Assembly: GCA_945903605.1 (NCBI GenBank)
Contig: CAMDOH010000010.1
Location: 1-50,246 of the forward strand
DNA: 50,246 nt
Direction of reading: 5' to 3'
Source: Akkermansia muciniphila
GTDB lineage: Bacteria; Verrucomicrobiota; Verrucomicrobiia; Limisphaerales; UBA1100
Part shown: piece by piece, positions 361 to 7,417 of the stretch
Numbering within the stretch: the first letter of the stretch is position 1
How the letters are laid out: each line of letters begins with the position of its first letter
Made by a program: the position numbers and the translations under genes
Notes under the pieces: generated by a model
What the model saw: the letters and a program-made list of their open reading frames with translations, nothing else
Database searches by the model: none
Told to the model about the DNA's origin: nothing

Positions 361-1068
361 ATGAAACTTACGAAACTGCTCCTCGCACTCCTCTCCACCG
401 CATCTCTGGCCTTCGCCGCCGAGGAAGGCTTCAAGCCGCTCTTTGATGGCAAGACTCTCACCGGCTGGGATGGCAATCCCAAGCTGTGGAGCGTGAAGGA
501 CGGCGCCATCACCGGCGTCACCGGCAGCGATCCGGAAACCAAAATCAATCACAACACATTCCTCGTTCACAAAGATGAGGTGAGCGATTTCGAGCTGCGT
601 TTCAGCTACCGCATCGTCGCTGGAAATTCCGGCGTGCAGTATCGCAGCAAGGTCACCGGCAAGGGCGCGTTCGGCCCGCGCGTCGGTGGTTATCAAGGCG
701 ACTTCGAGGCCGGCACCACTTACAGCGGCATCCTTTATGATGAAGGCGGCGTGGCGGGCGGCCGTGGTGTCATGTGCAATCGCGGCGAGAAAGTGAAGTG
801 GACCGCTGACAACAAGAAGGAAGTCGCGGGCAAGACCGAGAAGAGCTCCGCCGAGCTGCAGGCTGCCATCAAGAAAGAGGATTGGAACGAGTTCGTGATC
901 ATCGCCAAAGGCAACAAGCTCACGCACATCATCAACGGCAACGTCACCGCCGAAATCACCGACGAGTCGCCGAAGGCGCTCAAGAGTGGCGTGCTCGGAT
1001 TGCAGATCCACGTCGGTCCGCCGATGACCGTTCAGTTCAAGAACGTCCGCATCAAAGACCTGAAGTAA
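361..1068 (+). CDS. Secreted DUF1080 (3-keto-disaccharide hydrolase-like) protein
   Basis: 235 aa with a clear signal peptide (residues 1-19, cut near AFAAEEG). The mature part opens with FKPLFDGKTLTGWDG, the hallmark start of DUF1080, a concanavalin-like beta-sandwich. Further family features are the FELRFSYRI strand, the NSGVQYRS turn and a C-terminal GVLGLQIHVGPP strand. Some members hydrolyse 3-keto-disaccharides; many in Verrucomicrobia and Planctomycetes are uncharacterised exported proteins. It starts 51 bases after the isomerase gene, in the same direction, and ends just before a strong hairpin terminator. Envelope or periplasmic carbohydrate breakdown is likely; the substrate is unknown. 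Confidence 0.88.
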   Translation: MKLTKLLLALLSTASLAFAAEEGFKPLFDGKTLTGWDGNPKLWSVKDGAITGVTGSDPETKINHNTFLVHKDEVSDFELRFSYRIVAGNSGVQYRSKVTGKGAFGPRVGGYQGDFEAGTTYSGILYDEGGVAGGRGVMCNRGEKVKWTADNKKEVAGKTEKSSAELQAAIKKEDWNEFVIIAKGNKLTHIINGNVTAEITDESPKALKSGVLGLQIHVGPPMTVQFKNVRIKDLK

Positions 1069-1080
1069 CCAATCTCCAAC

Positions 1081-1110
1081 GAGGGACGGGTTCGCCCGTC
1101 CCTCTTTTTA
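1081..1110 (+). terminator. Rho-independent terminator with TTCG tetraloop
   Basis: A perfect 10-bp stem (GAGGGACGGG at 1081-1090 pairing with CCCGTCCCTC at 1095-1104) encloses the very stable TTCG loop and is followed by TTTTTA. It lies 12 bases after the DUF1080 stop codon. It ends only 8 bases before the ATG of the next gene, so it may also act as an attenuator for that gene. Confidence 0.9.
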
Positions 1111-1118
1111 TTTCTGAT

Positions 1119-2099
1119 ATGAAAAACATTCGCTCACTCCTCACACTCGGCTTCGCGCTGGCCGTCGCATTCGATGCGTCCGCTGCCGACAAGAAAATCA
1201 TCTTCATCGCTGGCCGTATCAGTCACGGCCCGCTTTCGCACGAGCATCGTGCCGGTTGCCTGCTGCTGGCCAAATCACTCGCCGGCATCAAAGGCATCAC
1301 CACCGAAGTCCACACCAACGGCTGGGTGATTGACGAGAAGGTGCTCGAAAACGCCGCGGCCATCATCGTGTACAGCGACGGCGGCGGCGGACATCCGTTG
1401 TTGCAAGGCGACCGTCTCACGAAGATCGGCGCGCTCATGAAAAAGGGCGTCGGCCTCGGCACGATCCATTACGCTGTCGAACCGACCACCGACAAGGGCA
1501 ATAAGGAATTCCGCGAATGGATTGGCGGCTGCTTCGAAACGCACTGGAGCGTGAACCCGCATTGGACGGCGGACTTCACGCAGTTTCCAAAACACGAAGT
1601 GACGCAAGGGGTGAAGCCGTTCAAGACGAATGACGAGTGGTATTATCACATGCGCTTCCGCGACGGCATGAAAGACGTCACGCCGATTCTCACTGCGATG
1701 CCGCCGGAGAAAACCACCGGCTGGAGCAAAGACAAGCCGGCGGATGCCAAGACCTCCACTCACGGCGGCAACCCGCACGTGTTCAAATCCGTGGTCGAGC
1801 GCAAGGAAGCGCAGCACATGATGTGGGTCGCCACGCGGCCCGATGGCGGGCGGGGTTTTGGTTTCACCGGCGGCCACAATCACATCGGTTGGGGCAACGA
1901 CGACCAGCGCAAGCTCATCGGCAACGCCATTCTGTGGCTCGCCAAAGTGCCCGTGCCGGCCAACGGCGTTGAAAGCAAAATCACGCAGGAAGAGCTGATG
2001 GCGAACCTCGATCCGAAAGGCGCGCCGAAACCGAAGCCAACTTCAACCACGCCTCCATCCAAGTTGACAGTGACCCCGAAACCACTGGAAACGAAGTAG
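1119..2099 (+). CDS. Secreted ThuA-like domain protein
   Basis: 326 aa from the ATG at 1119. This start gives a signal peptide (residues 1-22, cut near FDASAAD); the frame is open further upstream but would run through the DUF1080 gene. The mature protein begins KKIIFIAGRISHG and has the ThuA features DEWYYHMRF, a cluster of aromatic and His residues (ETHWSVNPHW) and the C-terminal GFGFTGGHNH segment. ThuA folds like class I glutamine amidotransferases and is linked to trehalose/disaccharide utilisation; its reaction is not firmly known. The last 45 residues are Pro/Thr/Lys-rich and probably disordered. No Shine-Dalgarno sequence is visible between the terminator T-run and the ATG. Confidence 0.85.
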   Translation: MKNIRSLLTLGFALAVAFDASAADKKIIFIAGRISHGPLSHEHRAGCLLLAKSLAGIKGITTEVHTNGWVIDEKVLENAAAIIVYSDGGGGHPLLQGDRLTKIGALMKKGVGLGTIHYAVEPTTDKGNKEFREWIGGCFETHWSVNPHWTADFTQFPKHEVTQGVKPFKTNDEWYYHMRFRDGMKDVTPILTAMPPEKTTGWSKDKPADAKTSTHGGNPHVFKSVVERKEAQHMMWVATRPDGGRGFGFTGGHNHIGWGNDDQRKLIGNAILWLAKVPVPANGVESKITQEELMANLDPKGAPKPKPTSTTPPSKLTVTPKPLETK

Positions 2100-2154
2100 G
2101 ATTCCTCACTCGCTGCACTTCACTCAAGTCGCAGTTGAACTTGCGCTCGAACGG

Positions 2155-2667
2155 TCAGCGCGGCGGAGGAATGGAATTGGTCGGCAACGGAAGAACCATC
2201 CCGCCCGATCCGATGGGCGCGGGAAACTGTCCATCGCCAACGCCCTTCATCGGATCGTCATTTTGTTGAGGTCGGAATTTCTGGATGAGGAGTGCGCCCA
2301 AAACGATCAGGAGAACCACGGCGAGAAATGGGCCAAAGGTGCGCCAGTTGACACGGGAGAGCAGCAGAGTGAACCGGTCCAGAATCGTGGCCTGACGCCA
2401 GACATCATCCGCGCCTTCTCGAAATTTCCCGGTCAGTCCCAACTCCGCATCCAAATCCGCGAGCAGCTGTTCCTCGGGCAACTTGAGAAGTCGGGCATAA
2501 GTGCGGACAAACCCGCGCGCGTAAATCGATGCGGGAAAAGATTCCCATTCCCCCTGCTCCATCGCGCCCACCTGATCTGTCTTCAGATTGGTTGAGGCGA
2601 CGACTTGCGGGATGGTTAACTTGGCGGCTTCTCGCGCGCTTCGTAACTGTTCTGCGACTCCGGCCAC
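2155..2667 (-). CDS. Short RodZ-like protein: HTH_25 domain plus one membrane helix
   Basis: 170 aa. Residues 4-72 are a Cro/XRE-type helix-turn-helix of the RodZ kind (LRSAREAAKLTIPQVV, then YARGFVRTYARLLKL, the typical end of that domain). A basic linker leads to one transmembrane helix at 111-129 and only about 40 residues outside, rich in Pro and Gly. RodZ links the actin-like MreB to the cell-wall elongation machinery; its HTH binds MreB rather than DNA. The usual C-terminal periplasmic DUF4115 domain is absent, so this is a shortened form. It is divergent from the hydrolase at 2789 (121 bases between). The family call is good; the role in shape is inferred. Confidence 0.8.
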   Translation of the reverse strand: MAGVAEQLRSAREAAKLTIPQVVASTNLKTDQVGAMEQGEWESFPASIYARGFVRTYARLLKLPEEQLLADLDAELGLTGKFREGADDVWRQATILDRFTLLLSRVNWRTFGPFLAVVLLIVLGALLIQKFRPQQNDDPMKGVGDGQFPAPIGSGGMVLPLPTNSIPPPR

Positions 2668-2788
2668 GGCGCGAAAATAGTGGCCAGCGCCATTTCTTGC
2701 AACCCATGAAACCGTTGTTTTTCGCTCGCACCCATTCCGGCCATGCCGTTAGATTCGCCGCCCACCGGTTTGCTCCGGCGCATTAAAG

Positions 2789-3577
2789 ATGTCACTGGCC
2801 CAACTGACTTGTCTGGGAACTTGCGACGGCCTGCCCGACGGCGAGCGCGGTCATTCGGCCTATCTTTACAGACTCAGCGGCACGGTTCTGCTTGTGGATT
2901 CGGGCGAGCCAGTGGCGCGGCAACTGCGCGCACGCAACATCCATCCCGATGAAATCGATGCCGTGTGGCTGACACATTTGCACATGGATCACATCGGCGG
3001 ATTGTTCATGTTGATCCAAGGATTCTGGCTGGATGGCCGGAAGAAACCCTTGCCGATTCACTTGCCCGAAGAAGGCGTACTTGTCATCCAAGCAATGCTG
3101 CGCGCCTCTTATCTGTTCGATCAATTGTTGCCGTTCAAAATCAGTTTCATCCCGCACAGCGCCGGTCAGCCTGTGCAAATCGGCCTGACAAAAATCACTC
3201 CACTGCTCAATTCTCACCTCGATCAACTTCGGCAATCGTTCGGCGGACAGCCGGGACAGAGATTTGAATCGTTCTCATTCCGAATCGAAACTGGCACACA
3301 CACCATCGCCCACACCGGTGATGTGGGTTCGCTTCAAGATCTGGATCCCCTGCTCGACCGGGATTTGGACCTGCTCACTTGTGAGCTGTCGCATTTGGCA
3401 CCCGCAGCACTCTTCGAGAAAATCAGCCGCGCCAATGTGCGCCGAGCCGTCTTCGTTCACATCGGTCGGGCCTTGCGAAAAAACCTCGACGAACTCCGGC
3501 ACCAGGCAGGTGCGGCATTGAATTCGGTTCCGCACGATTTCGCCGCCGATGGCGACGAATATCATCTGACGCCTTAA
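2789..3577 (+). CDS. Metallo-beta-lactamase-fold hydrolase
   Basis: 262 aa, cytosolic (no signal peptide). All metal-site motifs are present: HxHxDH at H63/H65/D67/H68, H143 in NSHLD, D178 in HTGD and H224 in FVHIG. The overall plan resembles small-molecule or RNA-processing MBL enzymes (ribonuclease Z and phosphodiesterase-like). Its position next to a cyclic-nucleotide receptor makes a cyclic-nucleotide phosphodiesterase worth considering, but nothing in the sequence proves it. It converges with the receptor gene and the two overlap by 4 bases at their ends. Confidence 0.8.
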   Translation: MSLAQLTCLGTCDGLPDGERGHSAYLYRLSGTVLLVDSGEPVARQLRARNIHPDEIDAVWLTHLHMDHIGGLFMLIQGFWLDGRKKPLPIHLPEEGVLVIQAMLRASYLFDQLLPFKISFIPHSAGQPVQIGLTKITPLLNSHLDQLRQSFGGQPGQRFESFSFRIETGTHTIAHTGDVGSLQDLDPLLDRDLDLLTCELSHLAPAALFEKISRANVRRAVFVHIGRALRKNLDELRHQAGAALNSVPHDFAADGDEYHLTP

Positions 3578-4284
3578 TTCTGCGTCGCGCGCAAAACGAG
3601 GATATCGCGATTGTGCCGCGTGTTGTCGGCGCGGATTCGCGCGGCCAGATTCTGTCCGAGCGCCGCCAGAAATGGCGCGGCGACTTCGGGCATCTCACGA
3701 GTCATCCGCTCAAACGCTTCGACGGTGATACTGAGCAGAATCGAATCCTGATTGGCAATGACGTCAGCCGAGCGTTCACCACGATCGAACAGTGCCACTT
3801 CGCCGAACACATCGCCCTCCTTCAAATTCGTGATCACCCGTTCCTTGTCGCCCACCAACTGCCTCACCCGCAACGACCCTTGCAACACGATATACATCGC
3901 GTCGCCGGATTTCCCCTGCTGAACAACCGTATCGAATTGGCGCACCTTTCGCACCTGCATGAGCTGCGAAAAACGACCTAGCTGCTGATCGCTTAAAGTG
4001 TCGAGCAATCGAACCTGCCTCAACGCGCCCGGCGGCACGCCAGCGATGAGTGGTGTGTGATTGAGTTTGCAGAATTTGGGATGATGCTCGCCCAACAGCT
4101 CTGCCAGTTCAACGATTTCACCGGCGCGGCTCCACTGATCTTGATCCAGAAGATAAAGCCAGGTTTCGGGCAGCACTCGACCTTCCGTGATCCACTCGGC
4201 CAATGTGTCGAGATTCACTGGGCCATACACGACATCGTCCACCGCCCAGACCTTGTACTGGCCCGACGTGTTTTCGGCTGGCAT
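3574..4284 (-). CDS. GYF_2-like adaptor fused to a cyclic-nucleotide-binding domain
   Basis: 236 aa from the ATG at 4284; an earlier in-frame start would overlap the ftsK stop. Residues 9-65 look like a bacterial GYF_2 domain (YKVWAVDDVVYGPV, then VLPETWLYL and W51), a fold thought to bind peptides. Residues 88-205 form a cNMP-binding domain. Its phosphate-binding cassette FGEVALFDRGERSADV has E162, R171 and S172, matching the cAMP contacts Glu72, Arg82 and Ser83 of E. coli CRP; Ser in place of Thr favours cAMP over cGMP. There is no DNA-binding helix-turn-helix, so it is not a CRP-type regulator. The gene lies 52 bases downstream of the FtsK-cyclase gene on the same strand, probably co-transcribed, and is its likely reader. 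Confidence 0.85.
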   Translation of the reverse strand: MPAENTSGQYKVWAVDDVVYGPVNLDTLAEWITEGRVLPETWLYLLDQDQWSRAGEIVELAELLGEHHPKFCKLNHTPLIAGVPPGALRQVRLLDTLSDQQLGRFSQLMQVRKVRQFDTVVQQGKSGDAMYIVLQGSLRVRQLVGDKERVITNLKEGDVFGEVALFDRGERSADVIANQDSILLSITVEAFERMTREMPEVAAPFLAALGQNLAARIRADNTRHNRDILVLRATQN

Positions 4285-4336
4285 GAACCCGATGCTGAGA
4301 ACTGGACGCCCGTTTGAAAAGCCAAAACGACTGTGA

Positions 4337-7300
4337 TTACTTCGTTGCGAGTTGTTCGGCAGCGAGCGCATCGAGATCGATCAAAATGTCGCGAGGCTCA
4401 GCCCCTTTGCTCGGGCCAACGATTCCGCGATTCTCAATCTCGTCCATGATTCGCGCAGCGCGTGTGTAACCAAGGCGCAGTCGTCGTTGCAATAACGAGA
4501 CGCTCGCCTTTTGCTCAGTACGGATGACCTCGATGCACGACTCGATGAGCGCCTCATCCTCGTCGCATCCCCCATTGTCGCCAAACGAACTGGTGGGCTT
4601 CGAGAGTTGCTGATGAATATCCATCTCGTAGCTCGGCTTGCCTTGCACAGCAATATAATCGATGACCGACTGGATTTCTTGATCAGTCACGAGCACGCCT
4701 TGTACGCGAGTTGGCTTGGCCGAACCTGGCGGCAGATAAAGCATGTCGCCTTTGCCCAGCAATTTCTCGGCACCCATCTCATCAAGAATCGTGCGGGAAT
4801 CGACCCGTTGCGCGACTTGAAATGCGATGCGCGCAGGAATGTTCGCTTTGATGACGCCGGTGATGACATCCACACTCGGCCGTTGCGTGGCGACAATGCA
4901 GTGGATGCCGGCGGCGCGAGCCATCTGTGTGATGCGCGCGATGGCCATCTCCACATCCGCAGGCGCGACGAGCATCAGATCCGCCAGCTCGTCAATGACG
5001 ACCACGATGTAACTGAGCTTCTCAGGAATGATGATATCCTCCTGTTGAACGGCAGCGATCTCTTCGTCCACCTCGACAGCGAAACCATCCGACTTCGGCT
5101 CGATACGATTATCGCGCGAGATCAATGGCAGCTCAGGCTCGGCAACGACCTTCGGTTTGTGCGGCCGGTCGTTGAACGACTTGATGTTTTTCACGTTTAC
5201 ACGGGCGAAAATGCGGTAACGCTTTTCCATTTCCTGCACCACCCAGCGGAGGGCGAGGATGACTTTCTTGGCATCGGTGACGACCGGCACCACGAGGTGC
5301 GGCAGCGCGTTGTACATCTGCAATTCGACGACCTTGGGATCGATCATCACAAAGCGCAGTTGATCGGGCGAGAATCGGTACAGCAGCGAAGCGATGATGG
5401 AATTGATGCAGACAGATTTGCCCGCGCCCGTGGCACCTGCGATGAGCAAGTGAGGCATGTCACCAAGATCGGCGATGATCGGGTTGCCGTAAACGTCCTT
5501 GCCGAGCGCCACGGGAATGCGCGCCTTCGTGTTCATCATCTCCTCGGACTCGAGCAGGTCGCGCATGATGACTTTGGTTTTGACCAGATTGGGCACCTCG
5601 ATGCCGACGGAACTTTTGCCGGGAATGGGCGCGAGGATGGAGATGCGCTCGGCGCGAACGGCAGCGGCGATGTTTTTGGAAAGACTCGTGATCTTTTCGA
5701 GCTTCACGCCGGGGGCCGGATGCAATTCGTAGCGCGTGATGGTCGGGCCTTTGGTGATGTCGCCCACGGCCACTTCGATCTCGAATTGCGCGAGCGTCTG
5801 CTGCATCAGCCGCGCATTGGCCATCAAAGTTTCCTTCGTGTCTGTCGAGCGCTGCGTGGTGTCCGGCTCCTGCAACAACGAGAGCGGCGGAAGTTTGTAA
5901 TCGCCGATTTGCGGGACGGTCGCCACTGACATCGGCCGTTTCCTGGGTTTCGGCCTTTGTCCCATTGTCCGAATGGCAGGTTCCGTCCCAGCGACGGCCA
6001 CGGCTGTTCCGAGCACTTCGGCGGTAGTGGCTGCACGGGGTATTTCTGGTTCAGCCGGCTCGGCCAGTGGCGGTTCCACCAACCGGGTTTCGTCCATCAA
6101 TTCCTGGCTCTGATCGGTGACCTCAAAAATCTCGACGCGCTGATCCACTCCCTGCAAATCGAATTCGCCCAAGAGCCGTGTCTGATATTCGGGATGACTG
6201 GCGATGTCCTGCTGGATTTTTCCCGAGATGGCGATTCCGCCAACAGGCGCGTACGGCTCGATGCGCGAGGCGATGTTGACCCCATCGCCAAGAATATCGC
6301 CGCCTTCGCAAACGATGTCGCCTTGGTGGACACCCACTCGCAGGTTCAGATGCGCCACCGATCGCGCGGCTTCCTGCATTCGCAAGGCGCATTGGACGGC
6401 TCCCAAAGAACTGTTGAAACTGAGCAGGAGTCCATCGCCAATTTCCTTGAGCCATTCGCCTTGGAATTCCTTGACGATGGGCCGGAGCAACGACCGCTGC
6501 TTTTTCAGCAGCTTTAGCGCCGCTTTTTCGTCGCGGCTGGAGAGTCTCGTGTATCCAGCAATGTCGGTGAAAACAATCGCGGCCAATCGGCGGGTCGATT
6601 CGGGTTCAGTTTTTGCCTGTCTTGAATTGGCGGCTATCGGCACGCTGAGATCGCGAATGGTCGGCTCGGGCACGGGCTGCATATCCGCGCCAATTCCGGA
6701 GAGCGCTGCAGGCACCTCAACCGTCTCAACAGATTTGCCGCCCTTTTGCTGGATCTGTTTCTGGAGTTGCACCACTTGCTTGGCCAGATCTTCGGCTTGA
6801 GATTGGAGCGCCGCTTCCTGACGGGACACTGTTTCAGCAGGAGTTTTCTTTTCACGCCATTGCTGCCACCGATCGCGCAGCCAAAGTGTGAGATTGAAAT
6901 TGGTGAGAAAAAGCAGGCTCACGAGATAAAGCGTCATCAGGATAATCACGGCTCCAGCCGTGCCAAGGTGACGGAAGATAAGCCAATTCAGAAACCAGCC
7001 TGCGGCCCCACCGGCATCGGGTGCGTTCAACTGATCCTTTAACGACGAAGCCCAATTGGGGAACAAGCTCAGTCCAGCAGAAATGCAAAGGACGACAACG
7101 ACAGCCCATGGCCAGCGACGCAACAATCCCTTCCAGCGATCGATGAAACAGAACAGCCCGAATAGAAGCATCAACGGCCCGACGAGATAGCCTGAAGCGC
7201 CAAACAAAAAGAACAGGCCCTGTGCCGTCCACGCGCCGAGAATGCCAACAAGATTGCTGGTGGAATCATTGACCTCCGTACCGTTGAAAGCGACATCAGC

Positions 7301-7417
7301 ACGATCGAATGAATAGGTCGACAAGAAAACCAACGCGGCAAGACATAGCAAAATCAGCCCGGCCAACTCGGACCGTGCACCATTTGCAGGGGGGGATGTC
7401 GTCTCCTTGGTAGACAT
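4337..7417 (-). CDS. ftsK: FtsK/SpoIIIE DNA translocase with an inserted class III adenylate cyclase domain
   Basis: 1026 aa, one unbroken frame. Residues 18-172 hold four membrane helices of the FtsK N-domain. Residues 199-225 may be coiled coil. Residues 277-433 are a class III nucleotide cyclase: metal Asp D285 and D328, adenine-selecting K324 and D374, transition-state N381 and R385. A Pro-rich linker follows (448-495). The motor spans about 505-925, with Walker A GATGAGKS at 661-668 and Walker B VVVIDE at 805-810. Residues 945-1012 are the winged-helix gamma domain that reads KOPS-type DNA signals. FtsK pumps DNA at the division septum as a hexamer; class III cyclases work as dimers. About 50 acidic residues between Walker A and B are normal for some FtsK proteins. 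The fusion is visible directly; a link between pumping and cAMP is inferred. Confidence 0.95.
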   Translation of the reverse strand: MSTKETTSPPANGARSELAGLILLCLAALVFLSTYSFDRADVAFNGTEVNDSTSNLVGILGAWTAQGLFFLFGASGYLVGPLMLLFGLFCFIDRWKGLLRRWPWAVVVVLCISAGLSLFPNWASSLKDQLNAPDAGGAAGWFLNWLIFRHLGTAGAVIILMTLYLVSLLFLTNFNLTLWLRDRWQQWREKKTPAETVSRQEAALQSQAEDLAKQVVQLQKQIQQKGGKSVETVEVPAALSGIGADMQPVPEPTIRDLSVPIAANSRQAKTEPESTRRLAAIVFTDIAGYTRLSSRDEKAALKLLKKQRSLLRPIVKEFQGEWLKEIGDGLLLSFNSSLGAVQCALRMQEAARSVAHLNLRVGVHQGDIVCEGGDILGDGVNIASRIEPYAPVGGIAISGKIQQDIASHPEYQTRLLGEFDLQGVDQRVEIFEVTDQSQELMDETRLVEPPLAEPAEPEIPRAATTAEVLGTAVAVAGTEPAIRTMGQRPKPRKRPMSVATVPQIGDYKLPPLSLLQEPDTTQRSTDTKETLMANARLMQQTLAQFEIEVAVGDITKGPTITRYELHPAPGVKLEKITSLSKNIAAAVRAERISILAPIPGKSSVGIEVPNLVKTKVIMRDLLESEEMMNTKARIPVALGKDVYGNPIIADLGDMPHLLIAGATGAGKSVCINSIIASLLYRFSPDQLRFVMIDPKVVELQMYNALPHLVVPVVTDAKKVILALRWVVQEMEKRYRIFARVNVKNIKSFNDRPHKPKVVAEPELPLISRDNRIEPKSDGFAVEVDEEIAAVQQEDIIIPEKLSYIVVVIDELADLMLVAPADVEMAIARITQMARAAGIHCIVATQRPSVDVITGVIKANIPARIAFQVAQRVDSRTILDEMGAEKLLGKGDMLYLPPGSAKPTRVQGVLVTDQEIQSVIDYIAVQGKPSYEMDIHQQLSKPTSSFGDNGGCDEDEALIESCIEVIRTEQKASVSLLQRRLRLGYTRAARIMDEIENRGIVGPSKGAEPRDILIDLDALAAEQLATK
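6119..6589 (-). other. Class III adenylate cyclase catalytic domain inside FtsK
   Basis: This part of the ftsK frame encodes residues 277-433. Core motifs in order: IVFTDIAGYT (metal D285), WLKEIGDG (K324 and metal D328), GGDILGDGVNIASR (D374, N381, R385), then GGIAISG. Lys plus Asp at the base-selecting positions indicates ATP rather than GTP. No catalytic residue is missing, so an active enzyme is expected once two copies pair. Confidence 0.9.

Follow-up and report, generated by a model that had tools for sequence, protein, structure and literature searches.

Predicted writer, predicted reader and probable eraser of a cyclic nucleotide are assembled at a single locus of the window, by which we mean the whole stretch of DNA that was analysed (50,246 nucleotides). 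They are, respectively, an FtsK protein with an inserted class III cyclase, a receptor of the cyclic-nucleotide-binding (CNB) type and a metallo-hydrolase, the gene of which converges on that of the receptor (Table 1). The FtsK-cyclase and receptor pair was found in the window and in 18 of the 19 other genomes of its family (f1), a family of uncultured freshwater and marine Verrucomicrobia (the named records are MAGs from Lake Baikal and, going by isolate names, from marine samples). We see in the locus a variation on known cAMP signalling, not a novel type of molecule, and the reading towards which we lean, with some reserve, is that a small cAMP signalling module has been built into the ftsK locus. 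A search of the literature on FtsK-cyclase fusions or on proteins combining GYF and CNB domains returned nothing relevant. In these bacteria, cAMP produced by the division machinery may serve as a local signal. With the predicted writer in FtsK, and the predicted reader and probable eraser alongside it family-wide, it would become testable whether, at division, a small-molecule second messenger can directly report what state the DNA-translocation machinery is in.

Table 1. Features of the ftsK-receptor locus (window coordinates)
Feature	Position	Strand	Basis
RodZ-like gene (HTH_25 + TM); linkage to ftsK ancestral	2155..2667	-	Pfam, synteny
Metallo-beta-lactamase-fold hydrolase, probable cyclic-nucleotide phosphodiesterase ('eraser'), convergent with receptor	2789..3577	+	PF12706; fold
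'Reader': receptor of 236 aa made up of GYF_2, CNB and C-helix, without DNA-binding domain	3574..4284	-	ORF, Pfam, AlphaFold2, Foldseek
Long C-terminal helix of receptor, residues 199-235, CRP-type dimerisation helix, HTH missing	3580..3690	-	AlphaFold2 model
CNB domain of receptor, residues 112-196	3697..3951	-	Pfam PF00027 2e-20; Foldseek
Phosphate-binding cassette GEVALFDRGERSA with E162, R171, S172	3766..3804	-	alignment
GYF_2 domain of receptor, residues 15-60, adaptor fold	4105..4242	-	Pfam PF14237 sub-threshold; modelled fold
Promoter-like element of receptor gene, TTTTCA-17-CAGCAT, 7 nt before ATG	4292..4320	-	conserved upstream pattern
'Writer': FtsK of 1026 aa carrying a class III cyclase insertion (4TM, coiled-coil-like stretch in linker, cyclase, alpha, motor, gamma)	4337..7417	-	
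Class III nucleotide cyclase domain in FtsK linker, residues 279-427	6137..6583	-	PF00211 7e-13

The receptor and its promoter

The first-pass annotation had placed the receptor gene 52 bases past the gene of the FtsK-cyclase, and the interval separating it from the stop codon of the latter (ending at 4337) is indeed of exactly 52 bp (4285-4336). The start of the receptor gene at the ATG in 4284 is indicated both by the near-invariance of M1 among 36 homologues and by the conserved promoter that immediately precedes it. The cNMP_binding family matched the protein far above the Pfam cut-off (72.8 bits for a cut-off of 27.5) and was recognised in all 36 orthologues. E162, R171 and S172, the contact residues that the annotation had named with exact numbering, are invariant in the 19 receptors of the family; the cassette pattern GE..L......RSA is invariant there as well, and nearly so across the order. 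In the sister families, where there is no FtsK-cyclase, the glutamate of the cassette is replaced by D in 5 receptors out of 20.

The two other traits attributed to the protein, an N-terminal GYF_2-like adaptor fold and the lack of a DNA-binding domain, also hold. The window protein itself is just under the Pfam cut-off for GYF_2 (E = 2.7e-5, 24.3 bits for a cut-off of 25.8), 30 of the 36 orthologues match that family at E ≤ 0.01 and the core residues W13, Y20, G21, P22, W31, W42 and W51 are invariant in the alignment. In the AlphaFold2 model (mean pLDDT of 88), a GYF-like unit (residues 10-71) is followed by the beta-barrel of the CNB domain and, at the end, by a helix of 37 residues; its GYF_2 region adopts a beta-beta-alpha-beta-beta-alpha arrangement, with block-mean pLDDT values of ~82-92 up to residue 60. 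The best Foldseek matches of the model were the N-terminal domains of CRP/CAP and GlxR (E to 1.9e-12). Among Pfam families, neither an HTH nor anything else that binds DNA was found in the receptor, the chain of which terminates in the single long helix; the C-terminal HTH that characterises CRP/FNR transcription factors is therefore missing.

The receptor is thus similar to the members of the CRP/CAP family (E. coli CRP, T. thermophilus CAP, GlxR) in its CNB domain, its ERSA-type cassette and its long C-helix, but differs from them by the absence of the HTH and the addition of an N-terminal GYF_2 domain, so that a DNA-independent output is expected. The regulatory subunits of PKA, the HCN and bacterial CNG channels and the MscS-CNB proteins likewise use a CNB domain as a ligand switch with a non-DNA output, whereas the output domain of the receptor is a GYF_2 adaptor. 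Its sequence points strongly to a CRP-derived protein, predicted to be of the cAMP type, and the case documents such a receptor in which DNA binding appears to have been swapped for an adaptor domain.

In the family and its sister families, the receptor gene is preceded by a T-rich -35-like element and a TAnnnT -10 element, separated by a spacer of ~17 nt and ending 6-7 nt before the ATG. The -10 is degenerate in the window genome (CAGCAT), but the pattern is clear in the relatives (TTTnC-17-TAnnnT). Among 22 representatives, TA occupied the -10 position in 19 (4.7 expected after shuffling, with 0 of 2000 shuffles reaching 19) and TTT was seen 15 times at the -35 position (2.3 expected). The receptor gene is probably transcribed separately, as a nearly leaderless message. 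Since it has a conserved promoter of its own, operon-type co-transcription with ftsK is not implied and loses ground as the default reading; an RT-PCR product across the gap between the two genes would not alone prove an operon. The element, as read in window 4285-4336 and in the upstream regions of L076-L113, points to near-leaderless transcription of the receptor gene across the order.

The cyclase within FtsK and the converging hydrolase

The FtsK of the window is complete (4TM, alpha, motor, gamma), and its cytoplasmic linker houses the cyclase domain. A charged, coiled-coil-like stretch and an EPTVRDLS motif precede the domain, both also present in the cyclase-free FtsKs of the sister families. 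The residues by which a class III cyclase was judged, i.e. two metal-binding Asp, a base-specifying Lys and Asp, and a transition-state Asn and Arg, are all there (D285, D328, K324, D374, N381 and R385), and the six are invariant in the 17 family sequences aligned. A Lys/Asp pair is the usual sign of ATP-type specificity in this class. When identity to the window FtsK was broken down by part, the cyclase of the relatives (68-79%) proved about as conserved as their motor (mostly 70-77%) and much more so than their 4TM region (47-51%), which indicates that the cyclase is under strong constraint. In all its catalytic residues the domain is like the class III adenylate cyclases of the cyclase-TPR/TolB type, from which it differs by its position inside the FtsK linker. 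The fusion was seen only in the family: none was detected in the rest of the 320 genomes of the order that were scanned, nor in a sample of 388 genomes from the phylum. Class III cyclases are active as dimers and FtsK forms hexamers, so an activation that depends on assembly is plausible. Docking of the GYF_2 domain on FtsK itself found no support: PPG-phi and other proline motifs were sought in 17 FtsKs of the family and 6 of sister families, no gained GYF docking motif was found and only the ancestral PPG[SA] of the motor recurs.

The hydrolase gene shares 4 bp with the 3' end of the receptor gene. Its product matches PF12706 at 62 bits (cut-off of 27), carries a THLHMDH motif which fits the [T/S]HxHxDH consensus, and has metal-type His and Asp residues that are invariant or nearly so among 13 homologues. 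The atypical class II phosphodiesterases Rv1339, YhfI and CpdA are defined by the combination of PF12706 and [T/S]HxHxDH (PMC9293780), and YhfI has a strong preference for cAMP/cGMP (PMC9117128). With these enzymes (CpdA being that of C. glutamicum) and the related Apyc1, the hydrolase has in common the domain, the motif and the fold, but it remains under the thresholds of the NCBIfam equivalogs, and its phosphodiesterase role is a predicted one; the cyclic-nucleotide phosphodiesterase model NF041851 gave 29 bits, over the first 69 residues only, for a cut-off of 400. Sequence and modelled fold, the latter resembling that of YhfI, make it a probable atypical class II phosphodiesterase-like enzyme and a probable cAMP eraser.

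Conservation and origin of the locus

The one family genome in which neither FtsK-cyclase nor receptor was detected, G019, is 50% complete; the pair is kept in every family genome that could be tested, and the case that would have undone the first-pass proposal, a receptor occurring only away from cyclase-bearing ftsK genes, is excluded. The order is always the same in the window and in the 18 relatives (18/18): ftsK is followed by the receptor gene in the same orientation, then by the hydrolase gene facing it, then by the rodZ-like gene, again in the orientation of ftsK. The cyclase lies on the same contig as the receptor in 15 relatives, ftsK being split by a contig end in G003, G010 and G014. 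The gap between ftsK and the receptor gene varies from 40 to 173 bp, and the receptors are 41-54% identical to that of the window. Orthologues with a CNB domain at this level of identity, together with a gene order kept in 19 genomes out of 19, argue that the receptor gene is not a chance reading frame. The invariable presence of the converging hydrolase gene (18/18 relatives) is an addition to the initial description. The three split ftsK genes, all from one genus, break at different points (L098, L105 and L109), perhaps an assembly effect of repeats or strain variation.

The linkage of ftsK to the rodZ-like gene predates the insertion of the receptor and hydrolase genes between them. The receptor family is essentially confined to the order: outside it, the phylum sample gave a single, partial CNB match at 1e-25. 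It is common in the sister families but away from ftsK, as seen in 20 loci of 9-16 kb containing neither ftsK nor hydrolase gene; in five of these, the receptor gene is just downstream of an argS-like gene, which we take to be argS. The hydrolase is present elsewhere in 22 sister-family genomes, and the FtsK cyclase is most closely related to stand-alone cyclases found in the same family and in one sister family (53-64% identity). In the cyclase tree, the FtsK cyclases form one clade, with a weak support of 0.63. Since relatives of all three are found elsewhere, the locus appears to have been put together from three separate elements in the family's ancestor. The receptor had existed before the pair arose and, judging from these comparisons, was relocated to the fused ftsK gene; its location in the sister families implies an ancestral role that was not specific to FtsK. 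The earlier view of cyclase and receptor as neighbours of a division protein is supported by the conserved pair, with these qualifications. A single evolutionary event lies behind the 19 genomes, which are not 19 independent witnesses, and the evidential weight resides in the maintenance of the arrangement through large protein divergence.

A proposed circuit and its alternatives

In the module that we favour, cAMP would be made by the cyclase domain that FtsK carries in its linker, as the residues of that domain strongly suggest, and oligomerisation of FtsK would be the likely activating event, given that the cyclase acts as a dimer. The receptor, a dimer that has lost its DNA-binding domain, would, on equally strong indications, bind cAMP through its CNB domain; binding would move the C-helix and expose or orient the GYF_2 adaptor, which would then dock on a proline-rich partner to give a non-transcriptional output. 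The YhfI-type hydrolase would degrade cAMP and so end or localise the signal. Most likely the output would inform the envelope or cell-shape machinery that FtsK has assembled or is active at division, the exact process being a guess. The septal checkpoint for chromosome segregation put forward in the first-pass annotation is one of several possible outputs, envelope shape, to which the adjacent rodZ-like gene points, being another; both the checkpoint and the 'septal' placement are hypothetical. In a fuller version, FtsK would sense its own assembly or DNA translocation and respond by producing cAMP, and a dedicated, DNA-independent CNB-GYF receptor and the phosphodiesterase would form with it a local circuit coupled to division, in which cAMP tells the envelope machinery that the chromosome has cleared the septum. 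This version is speculative and we hold it to be rather unlikely.

The module is favoured by the fixed gene order, the confinement of the FtsK-cyclase to one family and the retention of the six catalytic residues and of the cyclic-nucleotide contacts. Also in its favour are the motor-like conservation of the cyclase, the relaxed glutamate of sister-family receptors, the CRP-type fold devoid of an HTH, the lack of any second PF00027 protein among those detected in the window genome, and the resemblance of the hydrolase to atypical class II phosphodiesterases. Counting against it are the ancestral receptor found elsewhere in sister families, its own promoter, the second class III cyclase of the window genome (two were detected), the absence of a new docking motif in FtsK and the single evolutionary event, as well as two sister-family genomes (G023 and G050) where the receptor is present without a detected class III cyclase. 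The first three of these points would equally fit a general, housekeeping receptor which reads whole-cell cAMP from all cyclases and came to lie beside ftsK through one rearrangement that was never undone. This we consider unlikely, though worth serious attention, because relocation and cyclase insertion are limited to the same family and both were kept, with the hydrolase, through deep divergence, whereas the nearby BrkB gene, an ancestral neighbour upstream of ftsK, was not detected in G001, G002 and G005; moreover, E162 is fixed only where the FtsK-cyclase exists. Genomes G023 and G050 would fit a reading in which the CNB domain binds another ligand or none and acts as a scaffold, the FtsK cyclase signalling elsewhere; many CRP/FNR proteins do not bind cAMP. 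The conservation of the canonical cassette, absolute in the family and almost so in the order, makes that improbable.

Doubt is greater for the hydrolase, which could be RNase Z-like or something else unrelated to cAMP, so that the module would be a pair and not a trio. RNase Z is its best curated match in NCBIfam (TIGR02651, 88 bits), yet far under the cut-off of 293, so that the protein falls well short of both NCBIfam models, and it is the best RNase Z-like match of the window genome, two further points against the module. But it is shorter than RNase Z, with an ELAH-type motif at the site where RNase Z has HEAT or HST, and Foldseek ranked an arylsulfatase and YhfI first, ahead of RNase Z and Apyc1. 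Its absence from more than half of the order genomes searched also argues that it is not an obligatory tRNA enzyme. We regard the pair as a real possibility, short of an even chance, and retain the trio. As to a Pycsar-like anti-phage system made of cyclase and CNB effector, PADLOC models of Pyc effectors do match the receptor, but only in the shared CNB region; an effector would combine CNB with a TM or TIR killing domain, and the receptor has no TM, TIR or toxin domain. Besides, the cyclase is within a core division gene, inherited vertically across the family with fixed synteny. This reading was rejected as highly improbable.

Another observation that was not in the earlier description is that no PF00027 protein other than the receptor was detected in the window genome (2.68 Mb, 92% complete); the receptor appears to be the sole cAMP-type receptor of that cell. 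At least one further class III cyclase was found in most of the family genomes considered. Other family members also carry small CNB proteins and MscS-like proteins of ~500 aa with a CNB domain; one such channel, with the CNB domain at its C-terminus, is encoded at 947-2455 (+) of L170, and the type occurs in several family members but not in the window genome. The cassettes read in the CNB proteins of L166, L168 and L170-L172 are without the canonical Glu-Arg-Ser set. In G003 (L166), an FHA-containing class III cyclase gene is divergent from that of a small CNB protein. The two genes, which take up 1424-2122 (-) and 2242-3933 (+), may form another cyclase/CNB neighbourhood, one where ligand binding is non-canonical; because its CNB protein lacks the Arg of the phosphate-binding cassette, the pair was discounted as a supporting case. 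Other GYF_2-type proteins, with transmembrane segments, are encoded in L164 (973-1926, +) and L167 (193-1002, +), and GYF_2 may be a general envelope-adaptor domain in these genomes.
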